Shown: positions 6,398 to 36,163 of the stretch, one piece after another | Layout of the letters: every line of letters begins with the position of its first letter | How positions within the stretch are numbered: the first letter of the stretch is position 1 | Source: Pseudomonadota bacterium | GTDB lineage: Bacteria; Pseudomonadota; Gammaproteobacteria; Burkholderiales; Burkholderiaceae_C | Reading direction: 5' to 3' | Assembly (NCBI GenBank): GCA_030535425.1 | Contig: JAUNHQ010000024.1 | Location: forward strand, 1 to 40,008 | DNA length: 40,008 bases | Program-made: the position numbers and the translations under genes | The notes under the pieces: generated by a model | Seen by the model: only the letters and a program-made list of their open reading frames with translations | What the model was told of the DNA's origin: nothing | The model's database searches: none

Positions 6398-6452
6398 AAA
6401 AATGGCTGTTTGCGCGCGTTTTATAAGGGTTTTAAGCTATTAAAACAGTAGC
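6398..6452 (+). repeat. 55-bp dispersed element, copy 1
   Basis: This AT-rich element lies in the convergent gap between the CoA-ligase-like gene and the siderophore receptor. It matches the family pattern: AAAA..GGC..TTTGCGCGC, then TATAAGGGTTTTAA, ending in the inverted repeat GCTAT/GTAGC. With flanking bases, AAGCTA...TAGCTT forms a 6-bp stem. Its length is exactly 55 bp. Confidence 0.85.
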
Positions 6453-6487
6453 TTTCGCGGAATGGTGCCCGTCTGCCCCGTGCCGGC

Positions 6488-8665
6488 TCAGAACGCCAGG
6501 TTGGCCTTGACCATGATCGAGCGGGGCGCACCGGGCATGGCCGATGAGCGCCAGTAGGTTTTGTCAAACACGTTTTGCACGGCGGCGGTGAAGGTCCAGG
6601 GCGCGCGGTGGTAGCCAACCATGGCGTCCACGCGCGTAAAGCCGGGCAGGCTGTGCTGCACGTTTTGCACGGTGTAGTAGCGCTTGCCCAGGTGGGTGAT
6701 GCCGACTTCGGCAAACCAGGGTTGCGGCGCGTAGCGCACGAACAGGTTGCTGCTGACGCGGGCGGTGTTGTCCAGGTAGCGGCCTTCGCGCTCGGGACTT
6801 TGGCGGTCTTGCACAACTTTGGCCGACATCAGCCCCAGCGAGCCGCGCACGTACCACCGCGGGTGCAGGCGGCCAATGGCGCTGAATTCGATGCCACGCG
6901 AGCGCTCTTTGCCGCGCACGGCCCAGCGGGTCAGATCGTCCGGGTCGGGGCGGTAGCGCACGTTCAGGTGCTCCAGGTTGTAGATGGACAAGGTGGTGCT
7001 GAGCTGGCGGTCGAGCCAGTCGCTTTTGATGCCTACTTCGAACTGGCGCGACTCTTCCGGGTCCGTGTTGGCCGCCGCGTCGGTGGGCAGCACGCCCAGG
7101 TAGCTGCGCCCGCCGTAGGGGGAAAAGCTTTTGTTCCACGCCGCGTACACCGTGTGGGCGGGCGAGACGTCCCACACCACGCCCACGTTGGGGCTGAAGC
7201 TGCTGCCGCTGTAGGCAAAGCTGCGGTTCTGAATGTCGGTGGTCTTGAAGCGGTAGCGGTCATACCGCCCGCCCAGCAGCACCTTCAGGTCAGGGCGCAG
7301 GGCGATCAGGTCTTGCACGAACAGCCCGGCCGAGGGCGCGCGGTGGCGGTTGTCGATGGTGGCCGCCGGGCGGGGGCTGATGCGCGTCCAGGTGCTGGCG
7401 TCGGCAAACGGGTCGATGGGCTGGTTGCTGCGGCTGGTCAGCAGCGGATGGCGTTCTTCGCGCGCCAGATCCAGCCCCAGGCTGAGCTTGTGCTCGATGG
7501 CGCCGGTGGTGACGCGGCCATTGAGCGTGAGCGCGCTGCTCAGGGTCTTGTTGCTGGTTTCCTGCCAGGCGTAGCTTTGGTTGAGCACGCGGCGCGTGGC
7601 GTCGTAGGTGCCGCCAAAGTAATGGTCAAAGTCTTGCGAGGCGCTGCGGTGCGCCAGTTGCCAACGCAGGTTCCACTGGCTGCTCAGGGCGTAGTGCAGG
7701 TCCGAGCGCAGCACGCGCAGCTCATCGCGCACGAAGTCGCCCGGGCGGGCAAAGCCCTGGTGGTAGTCGATTCCCATGGCGTCGTACACGTCGCGCGTGG
7801 GGTTGCGGTCGGGCACGCGGCGGGCGCTGTCCCAGGTGTACTGGCCGGTCCAGCTCAAATCGCCAGAGCGCACGGTGATGCTGGGCGAGAGCATGTAGCC
7901 CTTGGTGTGCACGCCCGAGCGAAAGGAATTGGCCCGCGCCACCTCGCCGGTCAGCCGCACGGCCACCTGGGGGGTGATGACCTGGTTGATGTCGAACGTG
8001 GCGCTGCGGTTGGCCCACGCGCCGTAGGCCAGGCCCACGCTGCGCCGCTGGGTGAAGTTGGCGAACTTGCTCACCATGTTGATGACCCCGCCGCCGGCGC
8101 TGCGGCCATACAGCACCGATGCCGGGCCTTTGAGCACTTCCACCCGTTCGATGTTAGCCGTGGAGCGGCGCACCTGGCCGCTTTCGCGCACGCCGTCGCG
8201 GTAGATGTCGCTGGCGTCGGCCTGAAAGCCGCGGATGTAAATGCTTTCGCCGCGCATGTCGTAGGTGGCGTCGATGCCCGCCGTGCCCTCCAGGATGGAA
8301 CTGAGGTCGTTGGTGCCGTAGTTCTTGTTCTTCTGAATGTCCAGCACGTCCACTGTTTGCGGCGTTTCCCGCACGCTGAGCTGGTTGCGCGTGACATCGG
8401 CCTCTTCGTAGCCGATGTAGCCCTTGGTGACGCTGGTTTCCGCCGTGTCCACCACCTGCACTGTGGGCAGGGTGGCGGTGTAGTTGTCGGCATCGTCTGG
8501 TGCGGCAACAGGCTGGGCCGTGGCCGCAGGCGCAGCGGCGCTGGCAGCCGCCGAGGGCGTGGCGGGCGCGGCGGCTGGTGGCGTCTGGCCGTGCGCGGGC
8601 AGGGCGAGCAAAGCCAGTACGGCGCCGGCCACGGCCGTCGGGGCGAAGGAGCAAGGGATACGCAT
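6488..8665 (-). CDS. TonB-dependent siderophore receptor
   Basis: This 725-residue outer-membrane receptor imports ferric siderophores using TonB energy. It has a signal peptide (MRIPCSFAPTAVAGAVLALL, cleavage near AHG-Q), an Ala/Pro-rich linker, and a plug domain with TPQTVDVLD, the DMRGESIYIRGF stretch and VEVLKGPASVLYGRSAGGGVINM. The 22-strand barrel ends in the outer-membrane C-terminal signature with a final Phe (MVKANLAF). The ATG at 8665 was chosen because the signal peptide starts there, although the open frame runs much further upstream. Regulation is likely by iron: a Fur-box-like site lies just upstream, and an 11-bp repeat array lies beyond it. No siderophore synthesis genes are nearby, so it may take up a foreign siderophore. 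Confidence 0.93.
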   Translation of the reverse strand: MRIPCSFAPTAVAGAVLALLALPAHGQTPPAAAPATPSAAASAAAPAATAQPVAAPDDADNYTATLPTVQVVDTAETSVTKGYIGYEEADVTRNQLSVRETPQTVDVLDIQKNKNYGTNDLSSILEGTAGIDATYDMRGESIYIRGFQADASDIYRDGVRESGQVRRSTANIERVEVLKGPASVLYGRSAGGGVINMVSKFANFTQRRSVGLAYGAWANRSATFDINQVITPQVAVRLTGEVARANSFRSGVHTKGYMLSPSITVRSGDLSWTGQYTWDSARRVPDRNPTRDVYDAMGIDYHQGFARPGDFVRDELRVLRSDLHYALSSQWNLRWQLAHRSASQDFDHYFGGTYDATRRVLNQSYAWQETSNKTLSSALTLNGRVTTGAIEHKLSLGLDLAREERHPLLTSRSNQPIDPFADASTWTRISPRPAATIDNRHRAPSAGLFVQDLIALRPDLKVLLGGRYDRYRFKTTDIQNRSFAYSGSSFSPNVGVVWDVSPAHTVYAAWNKSFSPYGGRSYLGVLPTDAAANTDPEESRQFEVGIKSDWLDRQLSTTLSIYNLEHLNVRYRPDPDDLTRWAVRGKERSRGIEFSAIGRLHPRWYVRGSLGLMSAKVVQDRQSPEREGRYLDNTARVSSNLFVRYAPQPWFAEVGITHLGKRYYTVQNVQHSLPGFTRVDAMVGYHRAPWTFTAAVQNVFDKTYWRSSAMPGAPRSIMVKANLAF

Positions 8666-8673
8666 GTGAATGG

Positions 8674-8695
8674 TTAATAAGAGTGATTTGCATTT
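8674..8695 (-). promoter_or_regulatory. Possible Fur box upstream of the siderophore receptor
   Basis: On the minus strand this reads AAATGCAAATCACTCTTATT, close to the GCAAAT..TTCTCATT form of Fur boxes seen ahead of siderophore receptors. It starts 9 bases upstream of the receptor ATG, so it would overlap the leader or core promoter. The match is imperfect, and iron regulation is inferred. Confidence 0.4.
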
Positions 8696-8707
8696 GTATT
8701 TTAAGAT

Positions 8708-8771
8708 CAATGTATCTGGTGTATCTGTTTTGTGTCTGCGGCATGTCGGAAATGTGTCTGATGTGTGTCTG
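8708..8771 (-). repeat. Phased 11-bp repeat array (CAGAYACA units) in the divergent promoter region
   Basis: Read on the minus strand, six consecutive units start CAGACACA, CAGACACA, CCGACATG, CAGACACA, CAGATACA and CAGATACA. The unit lengths are 11, 11, 11, 11, 9 and 11 bp. Five of the six keep CAGAYACA, so the motif returns about once per helical turn on one face of the DNA. It lies 43-106 bp upstream of the siderophore-receptor ATG, a place where an activator array could sit. Confidence 0.7.
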
Positions 8772-8939
8772 GTCTGCGTGTGGCGCGCATCTGGCCAGTG
8801 CCGGCTGCATGCCTGTTGGGCAGGGGCGGGCATCCGCAGGGCGACGACCGACTTGGTGGACAATGGCCGCCGCTTTTTTGAGGCCCGCCGCCGTGTTTGC
8901 CGCGCGTGTTGCGCAAGCCTTTGCCATTGGATTTGCCAA

Positions 8940-10163
8940 GTGACTGCTGCCTCTACCGCTGACCATGCCTTGCCCGCCGCCGACCGCATGACCGCCGCCG
9001 AGCGGCGCGCCAGCGTGTCGCTGGCCAGTGTGTTTGCGCTGCGCATGCTGGGGCTGTTTCTGGTGTTGCCCGTGTTCGCGCTGGAGGCCGCGCGCCTGCC
9101 CGGCGGCGATGACCCGGCGCTGGTGGGCCTGGCCATGGGCATGTATGGGCTGACGCAGGCGCTGATGCAGGCGCCGCTGGGGCTGCTGTCTGACCGCCTG
9201 GGGCGCAAGCGCGTCATCGTGCTGGGCCTGCTGGTGTTTGCCCTGGGCAGCGTGGGGGCCGCGCTGGCGCCCAGCGTGCAGTGGCTGGCCGTGGCGCGCG
9301 GGGTGCAGGGCGCGGGGGCGGTGTCGGCGGCGGTGACGGCGCTGCTGGCCGATTTGACGCGCGATGCGGTGCGCACCAAGGCCATGGCGCTGGTGGGCAT
9401 GAGCATTGGCGCCATGTTTGCGCTGTCGCTGGTGGTGGCGCCGCCGCTGGCGGCGGCGGTGGGCCTGGGCGGCTTGTTCGGGCTGACGGCGCTGCTGGCG
9501 CTGGCGGCCGTGGCGGCGGTGCTGTGGCACACCCCGCCCGAGCCGCCCCGCCAGCCGGGGGCTGCGCGCGTGCCGCTGGCGCAGGTGCTGGGCCACCCGC
9601 TGCTGTGGCGGCTGAACCTGGGCGTGTTCGTGCTGCACACGGTGCAAATGGCCTTGTGGGGCGTGGTGCCGGGCCTGCTGGTGGCCGCCGGGCTGGCTAA
9701 GGCGGCGCATTGGCAGGTGTATCTGCCGGCGGTGGGCTTGTCGTTCGTGCTGCTGGGCGGGCTGTTTGCGCTGGAGCGGCGCGGCAAGCTGGCCGGTGCC
9801 CTGCGCGGGGCGGTGGCGCTGCTGCTGCTGGTGCAGCTGGCGCTGCTGTGGCTGGCGCCGCGCGCGCCGGGGGTGTGGGCGCTGGGGGCGGTGCTGTTTT
9901 TCTTCTTCGTGGCCTTCAACGTGCTGGAGGCCAGCCAGCCCAGCCTGGTGTCGCGCCTGGCGCCGCCGGCGTCGCGCGGGGCGGCGCTGGGGGTTTACAA
10001 CACCTTGCAGTCGCTGGGCCTGTTTGCCGGGGGGGTGCTGGGCGGGTGGCTGCTCAAGGCTGGGGGGGCGGCGGCGGTGCTGGCGGCAACGTCGGCGCTG
10101 GTGCTGCTGTGGCTGGCGCTGGGCTGGGGGCAGCCGGTGCCGGCGCGTCAGCCGCAGCGCTAG
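8940..10163 (+). CDS. Major facilitator superfamily transporter
   Basis: This inner-membrane transporter of about 407 residues has 12 predicted spans. Motif A appears as [15 protein letters not shown] after span 2, and [19 protein letters not shown] lies in the region of spans 4-5, as in drug:proton antiporters. Two starts are possible: GTG at 8940 ([17 protein letters not shown]) and ATG at 8988 ([12 protein letters not shown]). I prefer the GTG because relatives, as I recall them, carry a short polar extension, but neither has a strong ribosome-binding site. It is divergent from the siderophore receptor, so it could export or import a siderophore, but that rests only on position. Its 3' end overlaps the oppositely oriented chloride channel gene by 110 bp. 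Confidence 0.85.
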
Positions 10164-12154: not shown

Positions 12155-12165
12155 GGCCGCTGCGA

Positions 12166-12216: not shown

Positions 12217-12239
12217 TTTCAACCTTCGTTTTTTGACGC

Positions 12240-12662
12240 ATGAGCCTGACTCTTGAACAAGCCAACACCATCATCAACGCCGCCCTGGCCAAGGCACGGG
12301 CATCGGGCTTCAAGCCCATGGGCGTCGCTGTCGTGGATGCGGGGGGCAACCTCAAGGCCTTTGCCAGCGAGGACGGCGCCTCCATGTTCCGCTTTGACGT
12401 GGCACGCGGCAAGGCCTGGGGGGCGGTGGGCATGGGTGTGTCCAGCCGCACACTGGCCGAGCGTGCGCGTGAAAACCCCAATTTCTTCGTGTCGCTAGCC
12501 TCAGCGGCGCAAGGCCGCTTTCTGCCGCAAACGGGCGCGGTCGTTATCAAGAACGCCCAGGGCGACGTGCTGGGTGCGGTGGGCGCCAGCGGCGGCACGG
12601 GCGATGAGGACGAGCTGATCTGCATCGCCGGCGTGGCTGCCGCTGGCCTGGCGCACGGCTAG
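12240..12662 (+). CDS. GlcG/HbpS family haem-degrading-like protein (DUF336)
   Basis: This small 140-residue soluble protein has the DUF336/GlcG fold. It starts MSLTLEQANTIINAALAKAR, has the central VAVVDAGGNLKAF strand-turn, the RGKAW segment, and the glycine-rich GAVGASGGTGDEDE loop near residues 118-130. Family members include HbpS-like haem-binding proteins and GlcG of glycolate operons; many are simply uncharacterised. No glycolate oxidase or haem-uptake gene is adjacent, so no role can be assigned from context. It sits alone between ssb with its terminator and the repeat upstream of dapF. No convincing ribosome-binding site was seen before the ATG. Confidence 0.85.
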   Translation: MSLTLEQANTIINAALAKARASGFKPMGVAVVDAGGNLKAFASEDGASMFRFDVARGKAWGAVGMGVSSRTLAERARENPNFFVSLASAAQGRFLPQTGAVVIKNAQGDVLGAVGASGGTGDEDELICIAGVAAAGLAHG

Positions 12663-12683: not shown

Positions 12684-12738
12684 CAAATAGGCCGTTTGCG
12701 CGCGTTCTATAAGGGCTTTTTGCTACTTTAAAAATAGC
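12684..12738 (+). repeat. 55-bp dispersed element, copy 2
   Basis: This copy lies between the GlcG-like gene and dapF. It shows the conserved GGCCGTTTGCGCGCG block, TATAAGGG, and the end GCTAC...ATAGC. It occupies most of the 124-bp gap and ends 48 bases before the dapF ATG. Confidence 0.85.
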
Positions 12739-12786: not shown

Positions 12787-13719
12787 ATGCATATTCGCTT
12801 TACCAAGATGCAGGGTGCGGGCAATGACTTTGTCGTACTCGATGAAACACAGGGGCTGCTGGGGCTGACACCAGCGCAGTACCGCTGGCTGGGCGACAGG
12901 CGCTTTGGCATCGGGGCGGATCAGATTCTCAGCGTGCGCGCGGCGCCTTCGTCGCAGGTGGATTTTGAGTACGTCATCCACAACGGCGGCGACGGCGGCG
13001 AGGTGGAGCACTGCGGCAATGGTGCGCGCTGCTTTGTGCGCTACGTGCGCAGCAAAGGGCTGACAGACAAGCGCACCGTGCGCGTGCAGGTCAAGCACGG
13101 CGTGATTTCGCTGACCGAGCAGGACGATGGCCGCGTCGTGGTCGACATGGGCGCGCCCGTGTTCGACTTGGCTGCCGTGCCTTTTGATGCCACTGGCCTG
13201 TCGCCTGTGCCTGCGGGCGTGGGCACGGCCGGGCCGTGGCAGTACTGGCCTCTGGACTTGCGGCGCAACGCCGCTGCGCTGGCGCGCCTGCCGCAGGCGC
13301 TGGCCGCGCACGAAGCGTGGGTCAACGTGGCGGTGCTGTCCATGGGCAACCCGCACGCGGTGCAGCTGGTGGCCGATGTGGATGCCGCGCCTGTGGCTGT
13401 GCAAGGGCCGTTGATCGAGTCGCACCCGGCGTTTCCGCAGCGCGTGAACGCGGGCTTTTTGCAAATCGTCAACCGCGCGCAGGTGCGCCTGCGCGTGTAT
13501 GAGCGCGGTGCGGGCGAAACCCTGGCCTGCGGCACGGGGGCTTGCGCCGCCGTGGTGGCGGGCGTGCGCCTGGGACTGCTGGACACGCGGGTGGATGTGC
13601 ATACCCGTGGCGGCGTGCTCACCATCGAGTGGGCGGGCGGCGCACAGGATGCGGTGCGCATGACCGGCCCGGCGACCACCGTGTTCGAGGGCGAAGCCGA
13701 TATTCCAGAGCTGACATGA
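12787..13719 (+). CDS. dapF: Diaminopimelate epimerase
   Basis: This converts LL-diaminopimelate to the meso form, the precursor of lysine and of the peptidoglycan cross-bridge. The two catalytic cysteines are visible: Cys76 in HCGNGARC and Cys248 in [11 protein letters not shown]. The N-terminal [13 protein letters not shown] and the MGNPHAV motif are typical. At 310 residues it is longer than the E. coli enzyme (274). The extra length is partly an insertion between about 140 and 175 ([17 protein letters not shown]). It shares an ATGA overlap with the DUF484 gene, so the two are translationally coupled. The dapF-DUF484-xerC order is widespread in Proteobacteria. Confidence 0.97.
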
Positions 13720-14485: not shown

Positions 14486-14540
14486 CAAAAAGGCCATTTG
14501 CGCGCGTCTGGAAAGCGCTAGCAGCTATTAATTAAATAGC
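14486..14540 (+). repeat. 55-bp dispersed element, copy 3, abutting xerC
   Basis: This copy ends at the base directly before the xerC ATG. It keeps GGCCATTTGCGCGCG and the terminal GCTAT...ATAGC, while its middle reads GAAAGCGCTAGCAGC, like the pgi copy. It therefore supplies the whole region where a ribosome-binding site would be expected, and none is evident. Confidence 0.85.
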
Positions 14541-15506
14541 ATGGGTGATGATGCTTCCGTGAACGATGCCGCGCTGCTGGCGCGCTATCTGGCCTATGTG
14601 CGTGAGCAAAAGCGCCTGGCCGGGCGTACCGTGGCCTTGTATGAGGACGACTTGCGCGCCCTGTCTGCCTTTGCCGCGCAGGCCGGTGTGGCGCTGGTGC
14701 GGGTGCACAACGCGCAAGTGCGCCAGTGGGTAGCCCGCATGCACGCGGGCGGACGCAGCGGGCGCGGCATCGCGCGCATTCTCTCGGGCTGGCGCGGGTT
14801 TTACGCCTGGCTGGGGCACGAGGGGCTGATTGCCGTCAATCCGGTGCAGGACGTGCGTGCGCCGCGCCAGCCACGACCGCTGCCCAAAGCCTTGCCCGTG
14901 GATGAAACCATGCGCCTAGCCGGGCATGTGCAAGAGGATGACGATCCCTGGCTGGAGGCGCGCGACGCGGCCATGGTTGAGCTGCTTTATGGCTGCGGCC
15001 TGCGCGTGGCCGAGCTGACGGGGCTGGACGTGGCCGAGACCGACGCGGCGCGGCTGGCCGGGCGCGGCTGGATTGACCTGGCTGATGCCCAGGCGCATGT
15101 GCAGGGCAAGGGCAGCCGCCGCCGCAGTGTGCCGCTGGGCCGGCAGGCGCTGGATGCGCTGGCGCGCTGGCTGCCGCAGCGCGTGCCGGGCGCGCGCACG
15201 CCGCCACAGGGCAGCGCGGCGGATGCGCTGTTCATAGGGCGCGACGGCACGCGGCTGACCTCGCAATCCATCTGGCAGCGCCTGCGCCGCCGCAGCCTGC
15301 TGGCGGGCATGCCATCGCCCGTGCATCCGCACATGCTGCGCCACTCCTTTGCCAGCCATTTGCTGCAATCCAGCGGAGACTTGCGCGGCGTGCAAGAGCT
15401 GCTGGGCCACGCCAGCGTGCGCACCACGCAGGTCTATACCCGGCTGGACTTTCAGCACCTGGCGCGCATTTACGACGCCAGCCACCCCAAGGCCAAGCGG
15501 GGCTGA
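14541..15506 (+). CDS. xerC: Tyrosine recombinase XerC
   Basis: This 321-residue site-specific recombinase resolves chromosome dimers at dif together with XerD. The N-terminal SAM-like DNA-binding domain covers about residues 8-105. The catalytic set is visible: Arg155 (GLRVAEL), Lys190 (QGKGSRR), His264 and Arg267 (HPHMLRHSF), His290 (LLGHAS) and nucleophile Tyr299 (TTQVYTR). Together with the dapF context this favours the housekeeping enzyme over a phage or integron integrase. The ATG follows a 55-bp element with no Shine-Dalgarno sequence; GTG at 14559 is an alternative start that would shorten the protein by six residues. Confidence 0.93.
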   Translation: MGDDASVNDAALLARYLAYVREQKRLAGRTVALYEDDLRALSAFAAQAGVALVRVHNAQVRQWVARMHAGGRSGRGIARILSGWRGFYAWLGHEGLIAVNPVQDVRAPRQPRPLPKALPVDETMRLAGHVQEDDDPWLEARDAAMVELLYGCGLRVAELTGLDVAETDAARLAGRGWIDLADAQAHVQGKGSRRRSVPLGRQALDALARWLPQRVPGARTPPQGSAADALFIGRDGTRLTSQSIWQRLRRRSLLAGMPSPVHPHMLRHSFASHLLQSSGDLRGVQELLGHASVRTTQVYTRLDFQHLARIYDASHPKAKRG

Positions 15507-15585: not shown

Positions 15586-15640
15586 CAAAATGGCCTTTTG
15601 CGCGCGTTGCATAAGGGTTTTAAGCTATCAAAAGAGTAGC
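15586..15640 (+). repeat. 55-bp dispersed element, copy 4
   Basis: This copy lies in the convergent gap between xerC and ccsB. It is nearly identical in layout to copy 1: GGCCTTTTGCGCGCG, ATAAGGGTTTTAA, GCTAT...GTAGC. With flanks, AAGCTA pairs with TAGCTT and is followed by TT, giving a weak terminator-like hairpin 15 bp from the end of ccsB. Confidence 0.85.
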
Positions 15641-21253: not shown

Positions 21254-21308
21254 ACTATTATTTTGATAGCTGTTCGCACGCTCCTATCAAGCGCAAAACC
21301 TGTTTTTG
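21254..21308 (-). repeat. 55-bp dispersed element, copy 5
   Basis: This minus-strand copy lies between the divergent DUF488 and hydrolase genes. It reads CAAAAACAGGTTTTGCGCTT, then GATAGGAGCG, then AGCTATC...ATAGT. It belongs to the GCGCTT subgroup and keeps the same 55-bp register as the other copies. It lies directly upstream of the DUF488 ribosome-binding site. Confidence 0.75.
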
Positions 21309-25009: not shown

Positions 25010-25064
25010 CAAAATGGCCATTTGCGCTTTATTTATAAAGACTTTAAGCTATACAAAAAATAGC
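25010..25064 (+). repeat. 55-bp dispersed element, copy 6
   Basis: This copy reads GGCCATTTGCGCTTT, TTATAAAGACTTTAA and GCTAT...ATAGC with a perfect 5-bp terminal inverted repeat. It lies between divergent genes, so it cannot be a shared terminator here. Confidence 0.85.
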
Positions 25065-25290: not shown

Positions 25291-26487
25291 ATGTTCGACG
25301 TACTGATCCGTGAAGCCGGTGCCCGCTTCGGCTTGGGCGAAAAAGCCTTGCCGCTGGTGCAAATGCTGCTGGCGCGCATGACCAGCCAGGACACTGGCGG
25401 CCTGCCCGGCTTTCTGGAAGCTTTCAAGACCGCAGGCCTGGGCCCTATCGTGCAGTCCTGGCTGGGCGGCGGCCCCAGCGCCCAGCCCATCAGCAACAGC
25501 CAGATCGAAACGGTGCTGGGCGCTGGCGGCGGCCTGCTGTCGCAGCTGACCGCGCGCCTGGACGCCAACCGTGACAACGTGACCTCGGCCCTGGGCTACC
25601 TGCTGCCGGCCATCGTGGGCAAGCTCACCCCCGGCGGCAGCATGCCCGCCCGCCTGCCGCCGGAAGTGATGGCTCTGGCTGCCACGGGCCAAAGCCTGCT
25701 GGCCACCCCCGCAGCGGCTGAAACGGCGGCGGCCAGCGGCGGCATGATGAAGTGGCTGCCCTGGGTGGCCGTGGCCCTGGCCGCGCTCATTGGCGTGAGC
25801 TACTGCACCAAAAAAGGCGGCGACACCCCGGCCAGCGGTGCGCCCGTGCAGCAGGCGCCTGCGGAATCCACAGCGCCCGCCGCGTCTGCCGCGCAGGCAG
25901 ACGCACCGTCTGCGGCGGCGTTTGGCGGCTCGCCCCCGCCCAACGCCGCTGCCAGCAGTGCCAGCGAGCCGGCTGTCACAAATGCCCAGGCGAGCGGCGG
26001 CGCGGCCTTTGGCGGTGGCGGCCAGCCGCCAGCCCCGGCTGCCACGGGCGATACCGGCGGCGCAGCCTTTGGCGGCGGTGGCCAGCCAGCCGCCAGCCAG
26101 GCCAGCGCGCCTGCTCCTGCTGCTGCACCCACGGGTTCGGCCGTGGTGGCGCTGCAAGATGCCAGCCAGCGCCCCGCACTGAACGTGTACTTCGACAGCG
26201 GCAGCACGGCGGTGCATGGCGACTTTGCCGCCAAGGCGGGCGAGCTGCTGGCGTATCTGAAGGCCAACGCAGGGGCCAAGGCCGTGATTTCCGGCTACAA
26301 CGACCCCACAGGCAATGCCGCAGCCAATGCCGAGCTGTCCAAAAACCGCGCCCAGGCTGTGCAGCAGGCTTTGCTGGCGCTGGGTGTGGCAGAGGATCGC
26401 ACCGTGCTGGAAAAGCCCGCCGAGACCACGGGCACCGCCGATAGCAACGCTGCCTCGCGCCGCGTGGAAGTGGTGCTGCGCGATTGA
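25291..26487 (+). CDS. YidB-like (DUF937) - OmpA fusion protein
   Basis: This 398-residue protein has four parts. The first is an N-terminal DUF937/YidB-like domain (about 1-130). A single hydrophobic span follows (WLPWVAVALAALIGVSYC, about 154-171). Then comes a long low-complexity linker rich in Ala, Pro and Gly with repeated AAFGG units (AAFGGSPP, then GGAAFGGGGQP twice). Last is a C-terminal OmpA-like peptidoglycan-binding domain with VYFDSGSTAV, the NAELSKNRAQAVQQAL helix and the ASRRVEVVL end. The span probably anchors it in the inner membrane with the OmpA domain in the periplasm, binding cell wall. I recall similar fusions in related bacteria. Function is unknown. A strong terminator follows. 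Confidence 0.85.
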   Translation: MFDVLIREAGARFGLGEKALPLVQMLLARMTSQDTGGLPGFLEAFKTAGLGPIVQSWLGGGPSAQPISNSQIETVLGAGGGLLSQLTARLDANRDNVTSALGYLLPAIVGKLTPGGSMPARLPPEVMALAATGQSLLATPAAAETAAASGGMMKWLPWVAVALAALIGVSYCTKKGGDTPASGAPVQQAPAESTAPAASAAQADAPSAAAFGGSPPPNAAASSASEPAVTNAQASGGAAFGGGGQPPAPAATGDTGGAAFGGGGQPAASQASAPAPAAAPTGSAVVALQDASQRPALNVYFDSGSTAVHGDFAAKAGELLAYLKANAGAKAVISGYNDPTGNAAANAELSKNRAQAVQQALLALGVAEDRTVLEKPAETTGTADSNAASRRVEVVLRD

Positions 26488-26632: not shown

Positions 26633-26687
26633 TAAAAAGGCCATTTGCGCGCTTTTCATAAGGATTTCTAGCTACTTTTAAAATAGC
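26633..26687 (+). repeat. 55-bp dispersed element, copy 7
   Basis: This copy lies in the convergent gap after the YidB-OmpA terminator and before the end of the CoA-transferase gene. It shows GGCCATTTGCGCGC, CATAAGGATTTC and GCTAC...ATAGC. Confidence 0.85.
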
Positions 26688-26708: not shown

Positions 26709-27968
26709 TTAGCCGATCACCCCTTGCGCGCGCAGTGCGTGCAGGCGCGCTTCGTCGCAGCCCAGCAGCTGGCGCAGCACCTCGTCGGTGTGCTGGCCCA
26801 GCAGGGGCGGGGGCAGGGCCTGGCGCACGGGGGTTTGGCTGAGCTTGAGCGGGCTGCCGACCAGGCGCAGCCCGCTTTTGCGCGGGTGCTGCCATTCGGT
26901 GAGCATGCCGCGCGCTTGCACCTGCGGGTCGGCAAACACTTCGTCTAAGCGGTTGATGGCGCCGCAGGGCACCTTGGCCGCTTCCAGCTGGGCCAGCCAC
27001 TGGGCTTTGGTGCGGGTTTTCATCAGCGCCTCCAGCAGCGGCACCAGCGTGGCGCGGTGCGTGACGCGGCCGCTGTTGCGCGCAAAACGCGGGTCGCTGG
27101 CCAGGTCGGGGCGGCCGGCCACGTCGCAGAACTTGGCGTACTGCCCGTCGTTGCCCACGGCCAGGATGATGAAGTCCTTTTGCCCATCGGGCGCGGGGGC
27201 CACTTCAAACACCTGGTAAGGCACGATGTTCTGGTGCGCATTGCCCATGCGGCCCGGCGCCTGTCCGCTGACCAGGTAGCCCGCGCTCAGGTTGGCCAGC
27301 ATGGCCACTTGCGTGTCCAGCAGCGCCATGTCCAGGTGCTGGCCCTGGCCCGTGCGCTCGGCATGGCGCAGCGCGGCCAGAATGCCCACGGCGCTGTACA
27401 TGCCGGTGAACAGATCGGCCACGGCCACCCCCACTTTCTGCGGGCCGCCGCCAGCGTCGTCGCGCTCGCCGGTCACGCTCATCAGCCCGCCCATGCCCTG
27501 GATGATGTAGTCGTAACCCGCGCGCGGGGCGTAGGGGCCGGTCTGGCCAAAGCCGGTGAGGCTGCAATACACCAGGCGCGGGTTCAGTGCGTGCAGGCTG
27601 TCGTAGTCCAGCCCGTAGCGGGCCATGTCGCCGACCTTGAAGTTTTCAATGAACACGTCGCAGTGCCGCACCAGCTCGCGGATGAGCTGCTGGCCTTCGG
27701 GCTGGGCGATGTCGCAGGTGATGGAGCGCTTGTTGCGGTTGGCGCCCAGGTAGTAGGCCGCCTCCTGGGTGGGGGTGCCCTCGTCGTCGGTCAGAAACGG
27801 CGGGCCCCAGCCGCGCGTGTCGTCGCCCGTGCCGGGGCGCTCGACCTTGATGACGTCAGCACCCAGGTCGGCCAGGGTCTGGGTGCACCAGGGGCCGGCC
27901 AGCACGCGGGACAGGTCAAGCACGCGGATGCCTTGCAAGGCGGCAGGGGGGGCAGAGGCGGTGGTCAT
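26709..27968 (-). CDS. CaiB/BaiF family (family III) CoA-transferase
   Basis: This 419-residue enzyme moves CoA between carboxylic acids by an interlocked-dimer mechanism. It opens LQGIRVLDLSRVLAGPWCTQTLADLGADVIKVE, the family signature. The catalytic Asp is probably Asp185 in KVGVAVADLFTGMY. GPYAPRAGYDYIIQGMGGLMSVTG and the C-terminal half with the AGRPDLASDPRFA motif are also typical. Members act on oxalate, carnitine, mesaconate, succinyl and aromatic acids, and sequence reading alone does not tell which. No partner acyl-CoA dehydrogenase or ligase is adjacent. It lies downstream of prfC on the same strand, separated by a 55-bp element, and probably has its own promoter there. Confidence 0.92.
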   Translation of the reverse strand: MTTASAPPAALQGIRVLDLSRVLAGPWCTQTLADLGADVIKVERPGTGDDTRGWGPPFLTDDEGTPTQEAAYYLGANRNKRSITCDIAQPEGQQLIRELVRHCDVFIENFKVGDMARYGLDYDSLHALNPRLVYCSLTGFGQTGPYAPRAGYDYIIQGMGGLMSVTGERDDAGGGPQKVGVAVADLFTGMYSAVGILAALRHAERTGQGQHLDMALLDTQVAMLANLSAGYLVSGQAPGRMGNAHQNIVPYQVFEVAPAPDGQKDFIILAVGNDGQYAKFCDVAGRPDLASDPRFARNSGRVTHRATLVPLLEALMKTRTKAQWLAQLEAAKVPCGAINRLDEVFADPQVQARGMLTEWQHPRKSGLRLVGSPLKLSQTPVRQALPPPLLGQHTDEVLRQLLGCDEARLHALRAQGVIG

Positions 27969-27989: not shown

Positions 27990-28044
27990 TTAAAAGGCTG
28001 TTTGCGCTTTATGCACAATGGTTTTTTGCTATGGAAATAATATT
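27990..28044 (+). repeat. 55-bp dispersed element, copy 8
   Basis: This is a more diverged copy: AAAAGGCTGTTTGCGCTTT, then CAATGGTTTTTT, with GCTAT at the right register but a degraded end (ATATT rather than ATAGC). It lies between the prfC stop and the CoA-transferase start. Confidence 0.75.
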
Positions 28045-30348: not shown

Positions 30349-32001
30349 TCAGGGGAGTGGACAGGGCTGTGGGTGCAGCCGCGCCAGCAGTGCGGCGGTT
30401 GAGCCGTCCATGTCAGCGCTGCTGCCGCTGCTCAGGCAGGCTTCAATGTCGCCCGCGTGGCGCTTGCCCAGCTCGACGCCCCATTGGTCGAAGCTGTTGA
30501 TGCCCCACAGCGCGCCGAGCACGAAGGTGCGGTGCTCGTACAAGGCCAGCAGCGCGCCTAGGCTGGCCGGGGTCAGATCGGGCAGCAGCAGCAAGGTGGA
30601 GGGGCGGTTGCCGGGAAAGTGGCGCTCGGGTGCGTCGCCGGTCTGCCCCAGCATGAGCGCGCGCGCCTGCGCCAGGGCGTTTGCCAGCTGCTTGGCCTGG
30701 TGGCCCGGCAGGCCGTGAGTGGCGTGCTGCACCAGCACGAACTCCACCGGCACCACGTCGGTGCCCAGGTGCAGCATCTGGAAAAAGGCGTGCTGGCTGT
30801 TGCTGCCCACTTCGCCCCAGGTGACGGCGGCGGTGTCAAAGGGCAGCGGGCGGCCCCGGCTGTCCACGCGCTTGCCGTTGCTTTCCATCTCCAGCTGCTG
30901 CAAGTACGCGGGCAGGCGGCGCAGGCCGTGGTGGTAGGGGGCCACGCAGCGGCTGGCAAAGCGGTGGAAGTTGCGGTACCACACGTCCAGCAAGGCCAGT
31001 TGCACGGGCAGGTTGTGCGCCAGGGGGGTGTGGGCAAAGTGCTGGTCCATGGCGTGGGCGCCGGCCAGCAGCTGGGCAAAGGCGGCGCTGCCGGCGGCAA
31101 GGGCGATGGACAGGCCAATGGCCGACCACAGCGAAAAGCGCCCGCCCACGCCGTCATCAAAGGCAAAGCATTGCCCGGCGCCAAAGGCCTGGGCGGCGGC
31201 GCGGTTGGCGCTCAAGGCGACGAAGTGGCGCGCCACGTCGGTGCCGCCTTGGGCGGTGAACCAGTCGCGCGCCGAGTGGGCGTTGCGCATGGTTTCGGCC
31301 GTGCCAAAGGTTTTGGAGGCCACGATGAACAGCGTGCTGGCCGGGCGCAGCTGGGGCAGCAGCTCGGCCAGCTCGTGCCCGTCCATGTTGGCCACGAAGT
31401 GCACGCGCGGGCCATGGCCGGGCGGCTGGCCCAGATGGCCGCTGGCGCGCAGGGCTTGCACCACGGTGCGCGGCCCCAGGTCTGAGCCGCCAATGCCGAT
31501 GTTGACCACGTCGGTGATGGCCGCGTCGGCGCGCACCGCGTCGGCATAGGCCATCATGGCCGCGTGGCAGCGGGCCGCGTCGGTCAGCACGTCAGCTACC
31601 AAATGCATAGCTGCTGGCGCTTTGCCAGCAAGCGCCAGGGCTTGATGGGGCTGATGGCGCCAGTGCGTATGGGTGACGGGGCGCTGCTCGCTGGTATTGA
31701 TGCGCTCGCCCGCCAGCATGGCGTCGCGGTACACGTCCACCTGGCACTGGGCGGCCAGCGCGGTCAGCAGCTGCTGGGCCTGGCTGTCGATCAGGTTCTT
31801 GGACAGATCGGCACACAGGTGCGGGGCGGTGAGCGTGAAGCGCTGGGCGCGCTGCGCATCCTGTGCAAAGGCCTGGCGCAGGTCAAACGCCTGCGGCCCG
31901 GCAAAGTGGCGCGCAAAGTGCGCCGCCAGCTGGGGCCAGGCGGCGGTTTCGTCGCAGCGGGGGCGGTGTTGCCAATGCATGCCAAAAAGCTGCCGCCGCA
32001 T
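30349..32001 (-). CDS. pgi: Glucose-6-phosphate isomerase
   Basis: This 550-residue cytoplasmic enzyme interconverts glucose-6-phosphate and fructose-6-phosphate. Signature parts are NIGIGGSDLGP (about 158-168), GGRFSLWSAIGL, the DSRGRPLPFDTAAVTWGEVGSNSQHAFFQ region holding the catalytic Glu, and NSFDQWGVELGK. Length matches E. coli (549). Its ATG overlaps the tal stop (TGATG), so tal and pgi are coupled; an alternative ATG seven codons on is possible. Residues 118-136 (PHQALALAGKAPAAMHLVA) are encoded by a 55-bp dispersed element of the intergenic family, placed in a region where other PGIs have a variable loop. The frame is intact through it. Confidence 0.96.
   Translation of the reverse strand: MRRQLFGMHWQHRPRCDETAAWPQLAAHFARHFAGPQAFDLRQAFAQDAQRAQRFTLTAPHLCADLSKNLIDSQAQQLLTALAAQCQVDVYRDAMLAGERINTSEQRPVTHTHWRHQPHQALALAGKAPAAMHLVADVLTDAARCHAAMMAYADAVRADAAITDVVNIGIGGSDLGPRTVVQALRASGHLGQPPGHGPRVHFVANMDGHELAELLPQLRPASTLFIVASKTFGTAETMRNAHSARDWFTAQGGTDVARHFVALSANRAAAQAFGAGQCFAFDDGVGGRFSLWSAIGLSIALAAGSAAFAQLLAGAHAMDQHFAHTPLAHNLPVQLALLDVWYRNFHRFASRCVAPYHHGLRRLPAYLQQLEMESNGKRVDSRGRPLPFDTAAVTWGEVGSNSQHAFFQMLHLGTDVVPVEFVLVQHATHGLPGHQAKQLANALAQARALMLGQTGDAPERHFPGNRPSTLLLLPDLTPASLGALLALYEHRTFVLGALWGINSFDQWGVELGKRHAGDIEACLSSGSSADMDGSTAALLARLHPQPCPLP
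31595..31649 (-). repeat. 55-bp dispersed element, copy 10, inside pgi
   Basis: This minus-strand copy has the same 55-bp register. The core GCGCTT...AAAGCGCCAGCAGCTAT and the end GGTAGC are intact. Compared with copy 3, 29 of the 41 bases from the GCGC block onward are identical. The copy is read in frame in pgi and contains no stop in that frame. It is more GC-rich than the intergenic copies. Confidence 0.7.
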
Positions 32002-33143: not shown

Positions 33144-34298
33144 TTGAGCGCGCGATCTGTTCATTCCCCATCTTTGAGCTTAAGCCGCCGCCGCACGGTA
33201 TGGCGTTTGGCCGCTGGTGCTGCCAGCGCGGCTTTGCCTGCGCTGGCGCGGGCGCAGGGCAAGCCTATCCGCATTGGCACCACGCTGGACAACAGTGGCG
33301 TGGAGCGCACCAATGGCACCGGCATGGTTATTGGCACCAACGCGTGTTTCACGGCCTTGAACAAGGTGGGCGGCATTCACGGCAGCCCGCTGGAGCTGGT
33401 GGTTAAGGACGATCAGTTCAAACCCGAGCTGGCCAAGGACAACGCCCTGGCGTTGGCGGCCGATGCGTCGGTGCTGGCCATCTTGCACCCGCTGGGCACG
33501 CGCCAGGTGGCTGCCGTCAGCGATGCCGTGCCCGGCATGGCGGTGGTAGGGCCCAACACGGGCACGGTGGCGCTGCACAAGCGGAACACGCCTAACACGT
33601 TCTGGACGCGCGCCAACTACCAGCAGGAGATAGAGCGGCTGGTGCAGCAGGCGGCGTCGGTGGGGCAAACACGCATGGGGCTGGTGCACTCCAACGACCC
33701 GTTGGGCCAGGGCATGCTGGCGGGCTTTCGCGCGGCCATGCAGGCGCTCAAGCTTGAGCCCGTGGTCATCGCCACCACGCCCAGCACCACCAGCCTGGAG
33801 GTGGCCCCCGCCGCCAAGGCCGTGGCCGAGGCACGTCCGCAAGTGCTCATCATGGGGCTGGCCGGCACCGCTGGCGCGCTCATCAGCGCCTTGCAGGTGG
33901 CTCGTTTTCAAGGCACGGTTTATGGCGTGTCTATCGGCGCGGGGTCGGTGCTGAACATGGGTGCGCGTGCACAAGGGGTGGGCTTTGCCATGATCGTGCC
34001 TTCGCCTTTTGCGGCCCGAACGGCCATTGCCCGCCGTTACCAGGCCGACATGGCCGCCATTGGGCAAAAGAACTATTCACTGGCCAGCATGGAGGGCTAC
34101 ATCGCCGCCAGCGTGCTGGCCGAAGGGCTGCGCCGCGCCGGCCCCGGCGCCAGCCGTGCGGCGCTGATCGCGGGGCTGGAGCGCATTCAGGGGTTGGATC
34201 TGGGCGGTATCCACTTCAGCTTCGACCGCAACCAGCGCGAAGGCACTCGCTTTGTGGATATCGGCATCATCGGCCGCACGGGCCAGCTGATGACTTGA
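33144..34298 (+). CDS. ABC transporter substrate-binding protein, branched-chain type, orphan
   Basis: This type I periplasmic-binding protein of about 384 residues (Peripla_BP_6) has a likely twin-arginine signal (SRRRTVWRLAAGAASAALPA, cleavage near ARA-QG). The mature part starts KPIRIGTTLDNSGVERTNG and includes LNKVGGIHGSPLELVVKDDQ and AVSDAVPGMAVVGPN. A GAAAGGA ribosome-binding site precedes a TTG at 33144 by 6 bases; the intervening ATG at 33139 is out of frame and stops at once. An in-frame ATG at 33084 is an alternative but would put a poor leader before the signal. No permease or ATPase genes adjoin it, so it either serves a transporter encoded elsewhere or has a sensing role. Confidence 0.85.
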   Translation: MSARSVHSPSLSLSRRRTVWRLAAGAASAALPALARAQGKPIRIGTTLDNSGVERTNGTGMVIGTNACFTALNKVGGIHGSPLELVVKDDQFKPELAKDNALALAADASVLAILHPLGTRQVAAVSDAVPGMAVVGPNTGTVALHKRNTPNTFWTRANYQQEIERLVQQAASVGQTRMGLVHSNDPLGQGMLAGFRAAMQALKLEPVVIATTPSTTSLEVAPAAKAVAEARPQVLIMGLAGTAGALISALQVARFQGTVYGVSIGAGSVLNMGARAQGVGFAMIVPSPFAARTAIARRYQADMAAIGQKNYSLASMEGYIAASVLAEGLRRAGPGASRAALIAGLERIQGLDLGGIHFSFDRNQREGTRFVDIGIIGRTGQLMT

Positions 34299-34301
34299 GC
34301 C

Positions 34302-34330
34302 AAGGCGGCAGCCAGCCGCTGGCCGCCTTT
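34302..34330 (+). terminator. Likely terminator of the orphan binding-protein gene
   Basis: AAGGCGGC and GCCGCCTT form a perfect 8-bp stem with a 12-base loop 3 bp after the stop, followed by only a short T run (TTTG). It lies between convergent genes and might serve both. Confidence 0.5.
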
Positions 34331-34351
34331 GCCCGCTGGCGCCTGAAAAGC

Positions 34352-35152
34352 TCAGAACGCGGCCAGCACCGAGCCTTTGAACTCGGTTTTGACGAACTGG
34401 CGCACCGCGTCGGAGTGGTAAGCCTTGAGCAGCTTGGCCACCCACGGGGCGGCTTTGTCTTGCTCGCGCACGGCGATCAGGTTGACGTAAGGGCTTTTGG
34501 CGCTTTCACGCACGATGGCGTCGCGCGCCGGGTCGAGCCCGGCGGACAGGGCAAAGTTGGTGTTCACCGCCGAGGCGTCCAGATCGTTCAGCGAGCGCGG
34601 CAGTTGCGCGGCTTCCAGTTCGACAAAGCGCAGCTTCTTGGGGTTGTCCACCACGTCCAGCGGTGTGGCTTTCAGGCCCGCGTTGGGTTTGAGCTTGATC
34701 AGCCCCTGCTCTTGCAGCAACAGCAGCACGCGCCCGCCGTTGGTGGGGTCGTTGGGAATGCCAAAGCGCGCGCCGGGCTGCAACTCGGCCAGGGACTTGA
34801 CTTTTTTGGAATACAGGCCGATGGGGAAGTTGACGGTCAGGCCCACGCTCACCAGCTTGTAGCCGCGGTCTTTGACCTGCGCATCCAAAAAGGGCTGGTG
34901 CTGGTAGCTGTTGGCGTCCAGATCGCCGGCGGCCAGGGCAGCGTTGGGCTGCACGTAGTCGCTGAACTCGACGATCTGGATGTCCAGCCCGTCCTTGGCG
35001 GCCACTTGCTTGACCTGTTCCATGATTTGCGCGTGCGGCCCGGCGGTGACGCCAACCTTGATGCGGGTTTTGTCCTGCGCCAGTGCCAGCCCCCAGGTGT
35101 TGGCTGAAAAGGCAAGTACTGCCACGGCGCGCAACAAGTGACGTTTGTTCAT
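34352..35152 (-). CDS. metQ: MetQ/NlpA family methionine-type substrate-binding protein (copy 1)
   Basis: This 266-residue protein has a Sec signal (MNKRHLLRAVAVLAFSANTW, cleavage near ALA-Q). The NlpA/MetQ core reads IKVGVTAGPHAQIMEQVKQV, VEFSDYVQPNAAL, DANSYQHQPFLD, GIPNDPTNGGRVL and LRFVELEAAQLPRSL. It binds methionine or a related compound in the periplasm for MetNI. Unlike E. coli MetQ, a lipoprotein, it has no lipobox Cys after the signal, so it should be soluble. An AAGGAG site lies 8 bases before the ATG. It is the last gene of the met cluster and about 60% similar by eye to its neighbour, suggesting duplication with divergence. Confidence 0.93.
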   Translation of the reverse strand: MNKRHLLRAVAVLAFSANTWGLALAQDKTRIKVGVTAGPHAQIMEQVKQVAAKDGLDIQIVEFSDYVQPNAALAAGDLDANSYQHQPFLDAQVKDRGYKLVSVGLTVNFPIGLYSKKVKSLAELQPGARFGIPNDPTNGGRVLLLLQEQGLIKLKPNAGLKATPLDVVDNPKKLRFVELEAAQLPRSLNDLDASAVNTNFALSAGLDPARDAIVRESAKSPYVNLIAVREQDKAAPWVAKLLKAYHSDAVRQFVKTEFKGSVLAAF

Positions 35153-35192
35153 GTTGATGACTCCTTGAATGTCTGGAAGGAAAAGGGTAGGG

Positions 35193-35247
35193 TGAAAAAC
35201 GCTTTTGGCGCTTGTCCCTATTCAAAGTTAGCTATAGTTTTTTGACA
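35193..35247 (+). repeat. Possible degenerate 55-bp element, copy 11
   Basis: This lies between the two metQ genes. The sequence TGAAAAACGC, GGCGCTTGT, AAAGTTAGCTATAG follows the family layout with GCTAT in register, but the GCGCTT block is one base off and the terminal ATAGC is lost. The call rests on resemblance to copy 9 only. Confidence 0.45.
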
Positions 35248-35257
35248 AAGACATGGC

Positions 35258-36070
35258 TTACCAGGCGGCGGTGTAGGCGCCCTTGAAGGTTGTGTCGATG
35301 AACTGGCGCACTTCGGGCGACTGGTAGGCCTTGACGAAGGCCTGCAGGGCCGGGTCGCGCTCATGTCCGGCGCGAGTGGCGATAAGCACGGTGACGTAGG
35401 GGGTGTCGGTGCCTTCCAGTGCCAGTGAGTCGCCTGTGGGGGACAGGCCAGCGGCCACGGCGTAGCTGCTGTTGACGGCAGCGGCGTCCAGATCGCCCAG
35501 CGAGCGGGGGAGTTGCGCGGCTTCCAGCTCAATGAAGCGCAGTTTCTTGGGGTTGGCGGCAATGTCCAGCACCGAGGCGCGGGTGCCCACGCCATCCTTG
35601 AGCTGGATCAGCCCCTGTGCGGCCAGCACCAGCAGCGCGCGCGAGCCGTTGGTGGGGTCGTTGGGAATGCCGATGCGCGCTCGCTCGGGCAGGTCGGCCA
35701 GCTTGCGCACTTTTTTGGAATACACGCCCATTTGCTGCCGCACGGCGGCCGCCACGGGCACGAGCTGGTAGCCGCGATCTTTGTTTTGCGCATCCAGAAA
35801 AGGGCGGTGCTGGTAGATATTGGCATCCAGCTGGCCTTGCGCCAGTGCGGCGTTGGGCTGGATGAAGTCGCTGAACTCCACCAGCTTGACCTTCAGCCCA
35901 TTTTTCTCCGCCACCTGTTTGGCCACTTCGGCAATTTGTGCGTGCGGCCCTGCCGTCACGCCAATGGTGACGCTGCTGTTGGCCATGGCCGCTAGCGGCA
36001 GCAGTGCAGCCGCGACCGCGCCAGTCAGCCAAGTCCGGTGGCGTGACAGAAAAGACAAAGCCCTGCGCAT
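35258..36070 (-). CDS. metQ: MetQ/NlpA family methionine-type substrate-binding protein (copy 2)
   Basis: This 270-residue paralogue of the gene at 34352 has the same core motifs: VTIGVTAGPHAQIAEVAKQV, VEFSDFIQPNAAL, DANIYQHRPFLDAQ, GIPNDPTNGSRALL and LRFIELEAAQLPRSL. The signal peptide (RTWLTGAVAAALLPLAAMA-N) has no lipobox Cys either. Differences concentrate in the middle (VAAAVRQQMGVYSKK against VGLTVNFPIGLYSKK) and the last third, so the two may differ in ligand. It lies 203 bp downstream of metI, a gap holding a stem-loop and a 55-bp element, and 105 bp upstream of the other metQ. Sulfonate or another sulfur compound is an alternative ligand. Confidence 0.93.
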   Translation of the reverse strand: MRRALSFLSRHRTWLTGAVAAALLPLAAMANSSVTIGVTAGPHAQIAEVAKQVAEKNGLKVKLVEFSDFIQPNAALAQGQLDANIYQHRPFLDAQNKDRGYQLVPVAAAVRQQMGVYSKKVRKLADLPERARIGIPNDPTNGSRALLVLAAQGLIQLKDGVGTRASVLDIAANPKKLRFIELEAAQLPRSLGDLDAAAVNSSYAVAAGLSPTGDSLALEGTDTPYVTVLIATRAGHERDPALQAFVKAYQSPEVRQFIDTTFKGAYTAAW

Positions 36071-36108
36071 GATGAAGTCTCTCTTTCTCAGTGAAAACCA
36101 GTAATGGT

Positions 36109-36163
36109 TAAAAAGGCCATTCGCGCTTGTCTATCAAGTGCTGAATGCTATTAAAAATGTAGT
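36109..36163 (+). repeat. 55-bp dispersed element, copy 9
   Basis: This copy lies upstream of metQ copy 2 in the metI-metQ gap. It has AAAAAGGCCATTCGCGCTTGT, then a diverged centre, and GCTAT...GTAGT at the end. Its orientation is opposite to the met genes. Confidence 0.8.

Follow-up and report, generated by a model that had tools for sequence, protein, structure and literature searches.

A short sequence recurs at a length of 55 bp along the 40,008-nucleotide window analysed here (positions 1-40,008 of the forward strand of contig JAUNHQ010000024.1, assembly GCA_030535425.1, from a Pseudomonadota bacterium of Burkholderiaceae_C), which raises the question of what kind of element keeps its length while its sequence drifts. 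All ten copies given in a preliminary description were found at their coordinates, eight on the plus strand and two on the minus strand. Nine of them reach 38-73 bits with a leave-one-out window profile and the tenth, at 31595, reaches 3.6 bits; the best chance score from 60 shuffled windows was 15.9 bits.

With a genome profile, the copies on the plus strand are 6398..6452 (68.3 bits), in the gap between an AMP-binding gene (5079-6326) and a TonB receptor gene (6488-8632); 12684..12738 (74.7 bits), between an HbpS-like gene (12240-12662) and a DAP epimerase gene (12787-13719); 14486..14540 (68.7 bits), whose last base adjoins the start codon of a xerC-like gene (14541-15506); 15586..15640 (65.8 bits), lying between that xerC-like gene and one for cytochrome c assembly; 25010..25064 (69.2 bits); 26633..26687 (65.9 bits), in the convergent gap between an OmpA-type gene (25291-26487) and a CoA-transferase gene (26709-27968); 27990..28044 (53.7 bits), between the CoA-transferase and release factor 3 genes; and 36109..36163 (68.7 bits), between genes for an NlpA lipoprotein and an ABC permease. 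Of the minus-strand copies, that at 21254..21308 scores 56.7 bits, and a diverged one at 31595..31649 (27.5 bits) lies within a phosphoglucose isomerase gene (30349-32001, minus strand). A degenerate copy had been proposed at 35193..35247 on the plus strand. It scores 17.4 bits with the genome profile and less than 5 bits with a profile built from the window alone, and it is graded as weak because mirror or chance-like matches in the window already score up to 16.8 bits. Among genus genomes with both flanks found, a copy occupies the site at 14486 in 6 of 7 (all except G014), the site at 21254 in 6 of 6 and the site at 25010 in 1 of 8 (G005), counts that may include mirror matches of the right-hand dyad.

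The element is abundant throughout the genome. A profile search over 440 kb gave 77 copies above 8 bits compared with none in an order-2 Markov null of the same length; 170 copies were found in 834,882 bases, and the genome total is about 550-760. The fixed length proposed from the window was borne out by a count of distances between left and right blocks (distances 10-139 examined), in which 143 of 152 pairs were at distance 38 (55 bp) and five at 37 (54 bp), making 148 in one of these two registers, with one pair each at four other distances. About 1% of the genome is one repeat that reaches start codons and reading frames, which is relevant to annotators.

The more than 100 copies are mainly extragenic, with the midpoint outside called genes in 138 of 170 and inside in 32, and genic as well as intergenic copies are found on both strands. 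Of the gaps spanning at least 55 bases, a copy is present in 49 of the 90 that are convergent, in 71 of the 261 tandem ones and in 11 of the 97 divergent ones. The sequence GCTAT...ATTT sits at the position of a -10 box for xerC, but a general promoter role was rejected because convergent gaps are preferred over divergent ones. Spacing is irregular (CV 0.76 over 144 gaps), and when copies are set against GC skew there is no bias towards the G-rich strand (259 vs 236, P 0.32). A replication-strand polarity was suggested by genome G430, where the listed places from 0.87 to 2.98 Mb, 21 in number, are all on one strand. It was rejected as an artefact because the place lists are uneven by strand, with reverse-strand matches absent from them (G430 1223570, G199 583775, G455 502619 and 812633). 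A comparison with Rfam matched nothing in the window at gathering scores, and no element was hit at E up to 1; a plasmid search with one 55-bp copy as query gave no match.

Base pairing had been considered as a structural constraint on the length. The GCTAT/ATAGC inverted repeat is a conserved sequence dyad, but compensatory changes are not evident: pair tests within genomes gave z above 2 in 6 of 72 cases and z of -2 or below in 4, and compensatory pairing in the element is weak or absent. Between genomes, the middle dyad is altered on both sides in G014 (GCGCTTG/CAAGCGC) and G199 (GCCGGCG/CGCCGGC) and is imperfect in the source genome, G019 and G351. An RNA or single-strand structure with two hairpins and an outer stem looked persuasive on visual inspection; little support for it came from column couplings and shuffles, and it was therefore not adopted as the cause of the fixed length. 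Column counts contain no GTAG, GTRG or CGTC tetranucleotide head before a palindrome; columns 51-54 read ATAG, or GTAG in fewer cases, and these lie solely at the 3' side. The consensus has no terminal inverted repeats.

The expected presence in other Comamonadaceae was confirmed by the exact end pattern, which occurs in 37 of 120 genomes of the family and in 1 of 387 other genomes of the order. The ends are common across Comamonadaceae, the middle (columns 11-37) has a genome-specific consensus, and copies from the same genome have a common dialect in these columns. The two subgroups noticed in the window are part of this wider pattern of constant ends and a middle that varies by genome.

A gene for a REP-associated tyrosine transposase (RAYT; Y1_Tnp / NF047646), also anticipated in the preliminary description, is present in the source genome with a 55-bp copy at its 3' end. 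The gene (L084:4875-5615) passes the NF047646 cut-off of 80 with 85.8 bits; among the four proteins tested, that of G019 is above the cut-off (81.9) and those of G455 (70.0) and G518 (72.2) are below. In 15 of 21 RAYT loci, comprising the source genome's own and 20 chosen ones mostly from known carriers, the first base of an element lies at -15 to +8 relative to the RAYT stop, on the same strand. As a baseline, 28 of 803 other genes of the source genome have an element start -25 to +15 from the stop. The binomial P is about 6e-18 for the 15 of 21 loci, which are not independent inside one genus, and about 4e-12 when genera are counted (9 of 11). In a scan for the junction pattern, whose records were selected on the right end of the element and are likewise not independent inside a genus, the RAYT stop lies -15 to +12 from the element start in 27 of 29 records, the other two having too little upstream DNA to tell. 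Between genera, a copy is common to 2 of 2 RAYT sites vs 1 of 8 distinct other sites with both flanks found.

RAYT usually occurs once per genome in Comamonadaceae. No element was found at the stop, at the threshold used, for the RAYT genes of G003, G008, G017, G022, G487 and G232, nor at the end of the second Y1_Tnp gene of the source genome (C92, L085). A record matching G487 shows a faint element at the RAYT stop (9 bits). Two inverted elements flanking RAYT are not the rule: an inverted upstream copy within 100 bases was seen in 1 of 21 loci (G018), and a direct one in G011. In a hand count of 120 family genomes, a Y1_Tnp match was present in 28 of 32 carriers (at least five pattern hits) vs 60 of 88 below that threshold (Fisher P 0.04). 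Carriers with no Y1_Tnp match are G199 (127 pattern hits, 100% complete), G005 (single contig, 99%), G464, G491, G016 and, by absence from the matched rows, G514.

On balance we favour the view that this is a REP-like element of 55 bp belonging to the RAYT of Comamonadaceae. We take it to represent a new form of REP-like system linked to RAYT, one that lacks the GTAG head and the inverted pair and has dialects and turnover in place. The earlier interpretation is supported for the fixed length, the subgroups, the spread in Comamonadaceae and RAYT, and not supported for base pairing, target duplication and clean empty sites. In this view the enzyme would recognise single-stranded element DNA; the ends would form the invariant portion of its site, and the middle would co-evolve with RAYT. 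The enzyme would have seeded the copies, an event placed long ago because copy positions differ between genera, and today it would act mainly by turning over the sequence at existing sites, whereby the length would stay at 55. Copies may in addition serve the host, as in the region upstream of xerC and at convergent gene ends. Besides the junctions with RAYT, a concerted pattern at orthologous sites speaks for this reading: within the genus the copies mostly remain in place while the dialect changes, and each middle tends to follow its genome, 95 of 143 being assigned correctly compared with at most 39 in 20 shuffles. Against the RAYT reading are the two well-assembled carriers without a RAYT match (G199 and G005), the many RAYT genomes without the pattern and the absence of any observed insertion event.

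Less probably, the element is a conserved site bound by a protein of the chromosome or of transcription (acting in the nucleoid, in termination or in blocking read-through) and is maintained at gene ends by selection. A genome would carry from several hundred to more than a thousand such sites, the dialect would follow the specificity of the protein, and the RAYT neighbour would be one conserved site among others. Among seven genus genomes the position is kept in 604 of 738 overlapping comparisons, counted with a 75-base spacing that removes mirror matches of the right-hand dyad, which speaks for such a site, as do the preference for convergent gaps and the weak or absent pairing. The motif is conserved at the DNA level even inside reading frames: rare codons are kept at the element in mnmE, where Leu CTA has a frequency of 0.65 vs 0.02 expected, more extreme than in all 338 other columns, and in a few columns of thiL and glnD. 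This fits the protein-binding part of the constraint suggested earlier, and copies in essential genes offer built-in controls for DNA-level constraint. However, joint dialect change of a thousand sites by selection alone is hard, no candidate protein was identified, spacing is not regular, and other sites are rarely kept between genera whereas the RAYT junction is kept.

A stricter form of the RAYT reading, in which the enzyme hardly inserts any more and rewrites existing 55-base sites in place, is regarded as unlikely, a little more so than the binding site. Excised or copied single strands would anneal over the resident site at the replication fork, leaving the length unchanged and the positions fixed for the lifetime of the genus while the copies drift jointly into a species dialect. 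Clean empty sites and a target duplication were not supported by orthologous gaps with and without the element. Among 145 'absent' comparisons, the source was longer by 45-75 bases in 4 and the target in 7, with no peak at about 55 bases, and the lengths were equal within 12 bases in 60. Since no insertion event of about 55 bp stood out and comparisons of purK and mnmE showed no net insertion at their copies, transposition is not supported as the source of copies. If true, rewriting in place would explain the equal-length copies inside purK and mnmE and would make this a family of bacterial repeats whose concerted evolution is driven by an enzyme.

Presence that differs without a change in length, at those 60 comparisons and in purK and mnmE, would suit a motif similar to DNA uptake sequences, with sites that arise by point mutation and that biased uptake and recombination then drive to a genome dialect, the precedents being Neisseriaceae and Pasteurellaceae. 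The dialects by lineage, the genic and intergenic copies on both strands and the lack of G-rich-strand bias agree with this, but we consider it improbable. ComEC matches occur in 116 of 120 family genomes with no split by carriage and are absent from the carrier G351 (completeness rated at 100%), and the RAYT junction is left unexplained. Known uptake motifs are also far shorter than 55 bp, those of Neisseriaceae being 10-12 bp. A passive MITE family derived from ordinary insertions and now decaying is hardly credible, because the high copy number, subfamilies and gene-end location that suit it are opposed by the missing 55-base peak, the DNA-level conservation inside genes, the middles that follow the genome at orthologous sites and a consensus without terminal inverted repeats.

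Three known systems resemble the element in part. The beta-proteobacterial repeat element BRE is reported as a dispersed repeat in Comamonadaceae and Bordetella, of about 90 bp, 69% GC in Bordetella and at most 29 copies, with tandem arrays (PMC3110155). The 55-bp element shares the dispersal in Comamonadaceae and is set apart from BRE, on that description, by size, copy number and tandem arrays. The Neisseriaceae uptake sequences are likewise a genome-wide motif with lineage dialects (PMC3630211), but the present element has 55 bp and no receptor or uptake evidence. The REP/RAYT systems (REPtrons) of E. coli, Pseudomonas and Stenotrophomonas are portrayed as hundreds of short, mostly intergenic copies with genome-specific sequence, together with a RAYT gene whose stop codon is adjoined by an element (PMC2817692, PMC8266576, PMC8049555), and the RAYT-linked element resembles them in these respects. 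It differs in having 55 bp instead of 20-50 nt, in the missing GTAG/GTRG head, in an inverted pair around RAYT at just one locus, in the lack of BIME-like clusters (10 of 144 spacings below 600 bases) and of a clear covarying stem within genomes, in keeping its positions while the dialect changes and in the location of some copies within reading frames. Two of these reports treat RAYTs as domesticated transposases and describe the mode of REP spread as unknown (PMC8266576, PMC8049555). With positions, dialects and enzyme traceable through many genera, this family makes it testable whether RAYT enzymes insert or rewrite their repeats.

The copies named in the preliminary description are present where it placed them in the window; two lie on the minus strand. 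When each copy in turn is left out, a profile of the others recovers nine at 38-73 bits and gives 31595 only 3.6 bits, the top score in 60 shuffled windows being 15.9; a genome-wide profile raises 31595 to 27.5 bits. The degenerate copy at 35193 scores 17.4 bits with the genome-wide profile and is regarded as a weak copy because chance-like hits and mirror hits (extra matches from the right-hand dyad) in the window reach 16.8 bits.

The assembly comprises 3.31 Mb in 144 contigs, with the window on contig C69. In 440 kb of searched DNA 77 copies exceed 8 bits, 73 of them also 15 bits, compared with none above 8 bits under a Markov null, and with the sequence-only model R1 the best 150 of 1756 first-look candidates all have E <=1.5e-9. 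Larger samples contain 170 copies (834,882 bases) or, with ends-only scoring and mirror hits removed, 195 copies (855,092 bases), which scales to about 550-760 copies in the whole genome; the exact end pattern has 229 matches in the whole assembly. The constant length reported earlier is borne out: the distance from left to right block is 38 in 143 of 152 pairs and 37 in 5, and a spacing of 38 or 37 in 148 pairs shows that the fixed length is real.

All profiled genomes (G008 and G017 are left out, having too little DNA) have the 55-bp register and the ends in common, with variation, the left end being AAAW..GSC and the right end AGCTAT-N8-TAGC. Columns 11-37 carry a consensus, or dialect, particular to each genome: GCGCgcg...caaGgG.tt in the genome of the window, GCGCTTG...CAAGCGC in G014, CAGCGC...GCGCTGG in G011, GCCCTa...ccAtCtGCGC in G019, GCCGGCG in G007, ..tTccACtaGGAC.T in G005, GCCGGCG...CGCCGGC in G199 and GCCGGCGTATTTATTGCCTAAGC in G455. 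Loci L199-L201 of G003 have a second dialect, with TCTGAAA near columns 9-15, alongside the main one. In a minority of copies AAAA is swapped blockwise for TTTT in the A-tracts of columns 2-6 and 46-49, as if the AT-tract counted and its strand did not.

Middle identity is 0.503 (cluster bootstrap 0.477-0.533) in 313 orthologous pairs, the close pair G010-G023 excluded, against 0.454 (0.442-0.468) for random copies from the same two genomes and 0.513 (0.502-0.524) for random copies inside one genome. The corresponding values are 0.684, 0.598 and 0.604 for the right end and 0.558, 0.454 and 0.457 for the left end. Thus the ends retain a memory of the site only, while in the middles the genome weighs as much as the site. 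From the middle by itself, 95 of 143 copies at orthologous sites are assigned to their own genome when G010 is excluded, compared with an average of 20.1 and a maximum of 39 in 20 shuffles of the labels.

Among seven genomes of the genus (G003, G007, G010, G011, G014, G019 and G023) 604 of 738 comparisons show a copy in the orthologous gap; the comparisons are ordered, overlapping and non-independent and include G010-G023. From the more distant genome of the window the count is 18 of 36, a figure that rises to 24 of 36 if genome-specific profiles are applied and mirror hits retained. Individual copies differ: among genomes in which both flanks are present, a counterpart exists in 6 of 7 for 14486, in all 6 for 21254 and in 1 of 8 for 25010. 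In genome pairs with at least 8 'absent' comparisons (145 in all), gap length is equal within 12 bases in 60, although such a site can also be a copy under the score threshold; the source is longer by 45-75 bases in 4 and the target in 7. G010 and G023, 90% identical, have some identical sites and others that differ across the element and adjoining gap. Within the genus, no birth by insertion is visible and sequence turnover at constant length is.

The dyads are treated as sequence motifs, and the element is not clearly a fold. Pairing in 72 tests (24 pairs, from two dyads and the outer stem, in three copy sets) gave z >2 in 6 and z <=-2 in 4, and the strongest column couplings fall off the stems. 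Between genomes, some middle dyads are altered on each side (G014 vs G199) and others are imperfect.

Among gaps of at least 55 bases, copies occur in 49 of the 90 that are convergent, 71 of the 261 that are tandem and 11 of the 97 that are divergent. Relative to tandem neighbour genes both orientations are seen, the same in 33 cases and the opposite in 41, and 14 genomes show no GC-skew orientation bias (259 vs 236, P 0.32). An apparent strand polarity in place lists for G430, G199 and G405 was rejected as an artefact, because reverse-strand matches are absent from those lists. Copy spacing has a CV of 0.76 over 144 gaps, 10 of them below 600 bases. At 14486-14541 the right end abuts the xerC start codon, here and in several relatives; copy 14486 may serve as the xerC promoter, since its conserved GCTA..ATTT resembles a -10 box.

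The midpoints of 32 of the 170 copies lie within genes called by a purpose-made ORF caller, several being weak or at gene edges. At the strong copy in purK and the weak one (30-35 bits) in mnmE, the coded stretch aligns gap-free to the best solved homologue. There are 8 extra residues at the element in truB, 8 split over two gaps in an amidohydrolase gene, and 17 against one homologue in thiL, and many genus members have the motif there; for a response regulator and metX the homologue alignments end within the first element residues. Of the 12 codon columns of the element that are usable across 26 mnmE sequences, 8 are ordinary and 4 stand out: Leu CTA at 0.65 (0.02 expected, a deviation unsurpassed in the 338 other columns), TTG at 0.71 (0.10), CAA at 0.95 (0.27) and GGA at 0.30 (0.03). 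Codon usage agrees in thiL, where 3 columns could be used, and in glnD, where 2 could. Inside genes it is the DNA motif itself that is conserved.

The preliminary description proposed looking for a REP-associated tyrosine transposase (RAYT) gene, and one exists with a copy at its stop codon. The genome has two Y1_Tnp matches; a hand count gave one match in 67 of 88 matched family genomes. The gene on C67 (L084:4875-5615) scores above the cut-off of the RAYT model NF047646, and its stop codon overlaps a 55-bp copy by two bases, the last two of the codon and the first two of the copy; the right end of this copy continues into TGTCCCCAATT. The second gene, on C92, has no element at its end. Judged by eye, using the local dialect where known, the element lies at the RAYT stop in 15 of 21 loci, 20 of them hand-chosen and mostly from known carriers (present in the genome of the window, G007, G011, G014, G018, G019, G023, G322, G430, G455, G459, G463, G493, G494 and G518; absent in G003, G008, G017, G022, G232 and G487), compared with 28 of 803 other genes. 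Between genera, 2 of 2 RAYT sites and 1 of 8 non-RAYT sites are shared. A junction-pattern scan found the arrangement in 27 of 29 records, which supports the arrangement and the names and is not an independent rate, because the scan preselects on the element right end and TGTCCCC; in some members, Variovorax records among them, the middle is degenerate. TGTCCCC(A)ATT is conserved directly after the RAYT-linked copy (L084:5669-5680 and other RAYT loci) and may represent a terminal motif that belongs to the transposase gene itself. G014 also has multi-copy short IS200-type transposase frames (153 aa) and one RAYT-like gene.

Within the family, 37 of 120 genomes, from 36 of 119 genera, carry the end pattern. 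In an order sample it is present in 8 of 12 family genomes, that of the window included, and in 1 of 387 outside the family (G203, a single match), the reversed control pattern giving 4 single matches among 399 order genomes. The 29 junction records, which include strain E41 twice, are from Polaromonas, Rhodoferax, Variovorax, Acidovorax, Ottowia, Simplicispira, Xenophilus and Giesbergeria, the others being named only at Comamonadaceae, Burkholderiaceae or higher level. One carrier, G351, rated 100% complete, is without any ComEC_Rec2 match.

The enzyme adjoining the element, together with the genome dialects, points to a REPtron-like pair of element and RAYT. A continuous need for the RAYT is spoken against by the carriers G199 and G005, which have no RAYT match. 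Turnover of the sequence in place would proceed by the RAYT or because of it; selection by another protein or uptake-driven homogenisation may instead be its driver.

No description of the 55-bp Comamonadaceae element was found in the literature searched, which takes in few subscription papers and preprints. RAYTs are reported from gammaproteobacteria and Thauera, the Thauera RAYT reportedly having no counterpart in other betaproteobacteria (PMC2817692), and the terms searched gave no mention of Comamonadaceae or betaproteobacteria in PMC3733652. The beta-proteobacterial repeat element BRE differs in size and composition, as far as the accessible part of its description goes (PMC3110155), and is set apart by that description, not by sequence. 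According to the REP literature, RAYTs are single-copy and vertically inherited, REPs are often located near the stop codon of rayt, and how REPs disseminate is reported as unknown (PMC2817692, PMC8266576, PMC8049555). The 55-bp element differs from REPtrons in that in-genus insertion is not visible here, but its turnover at constant length is.
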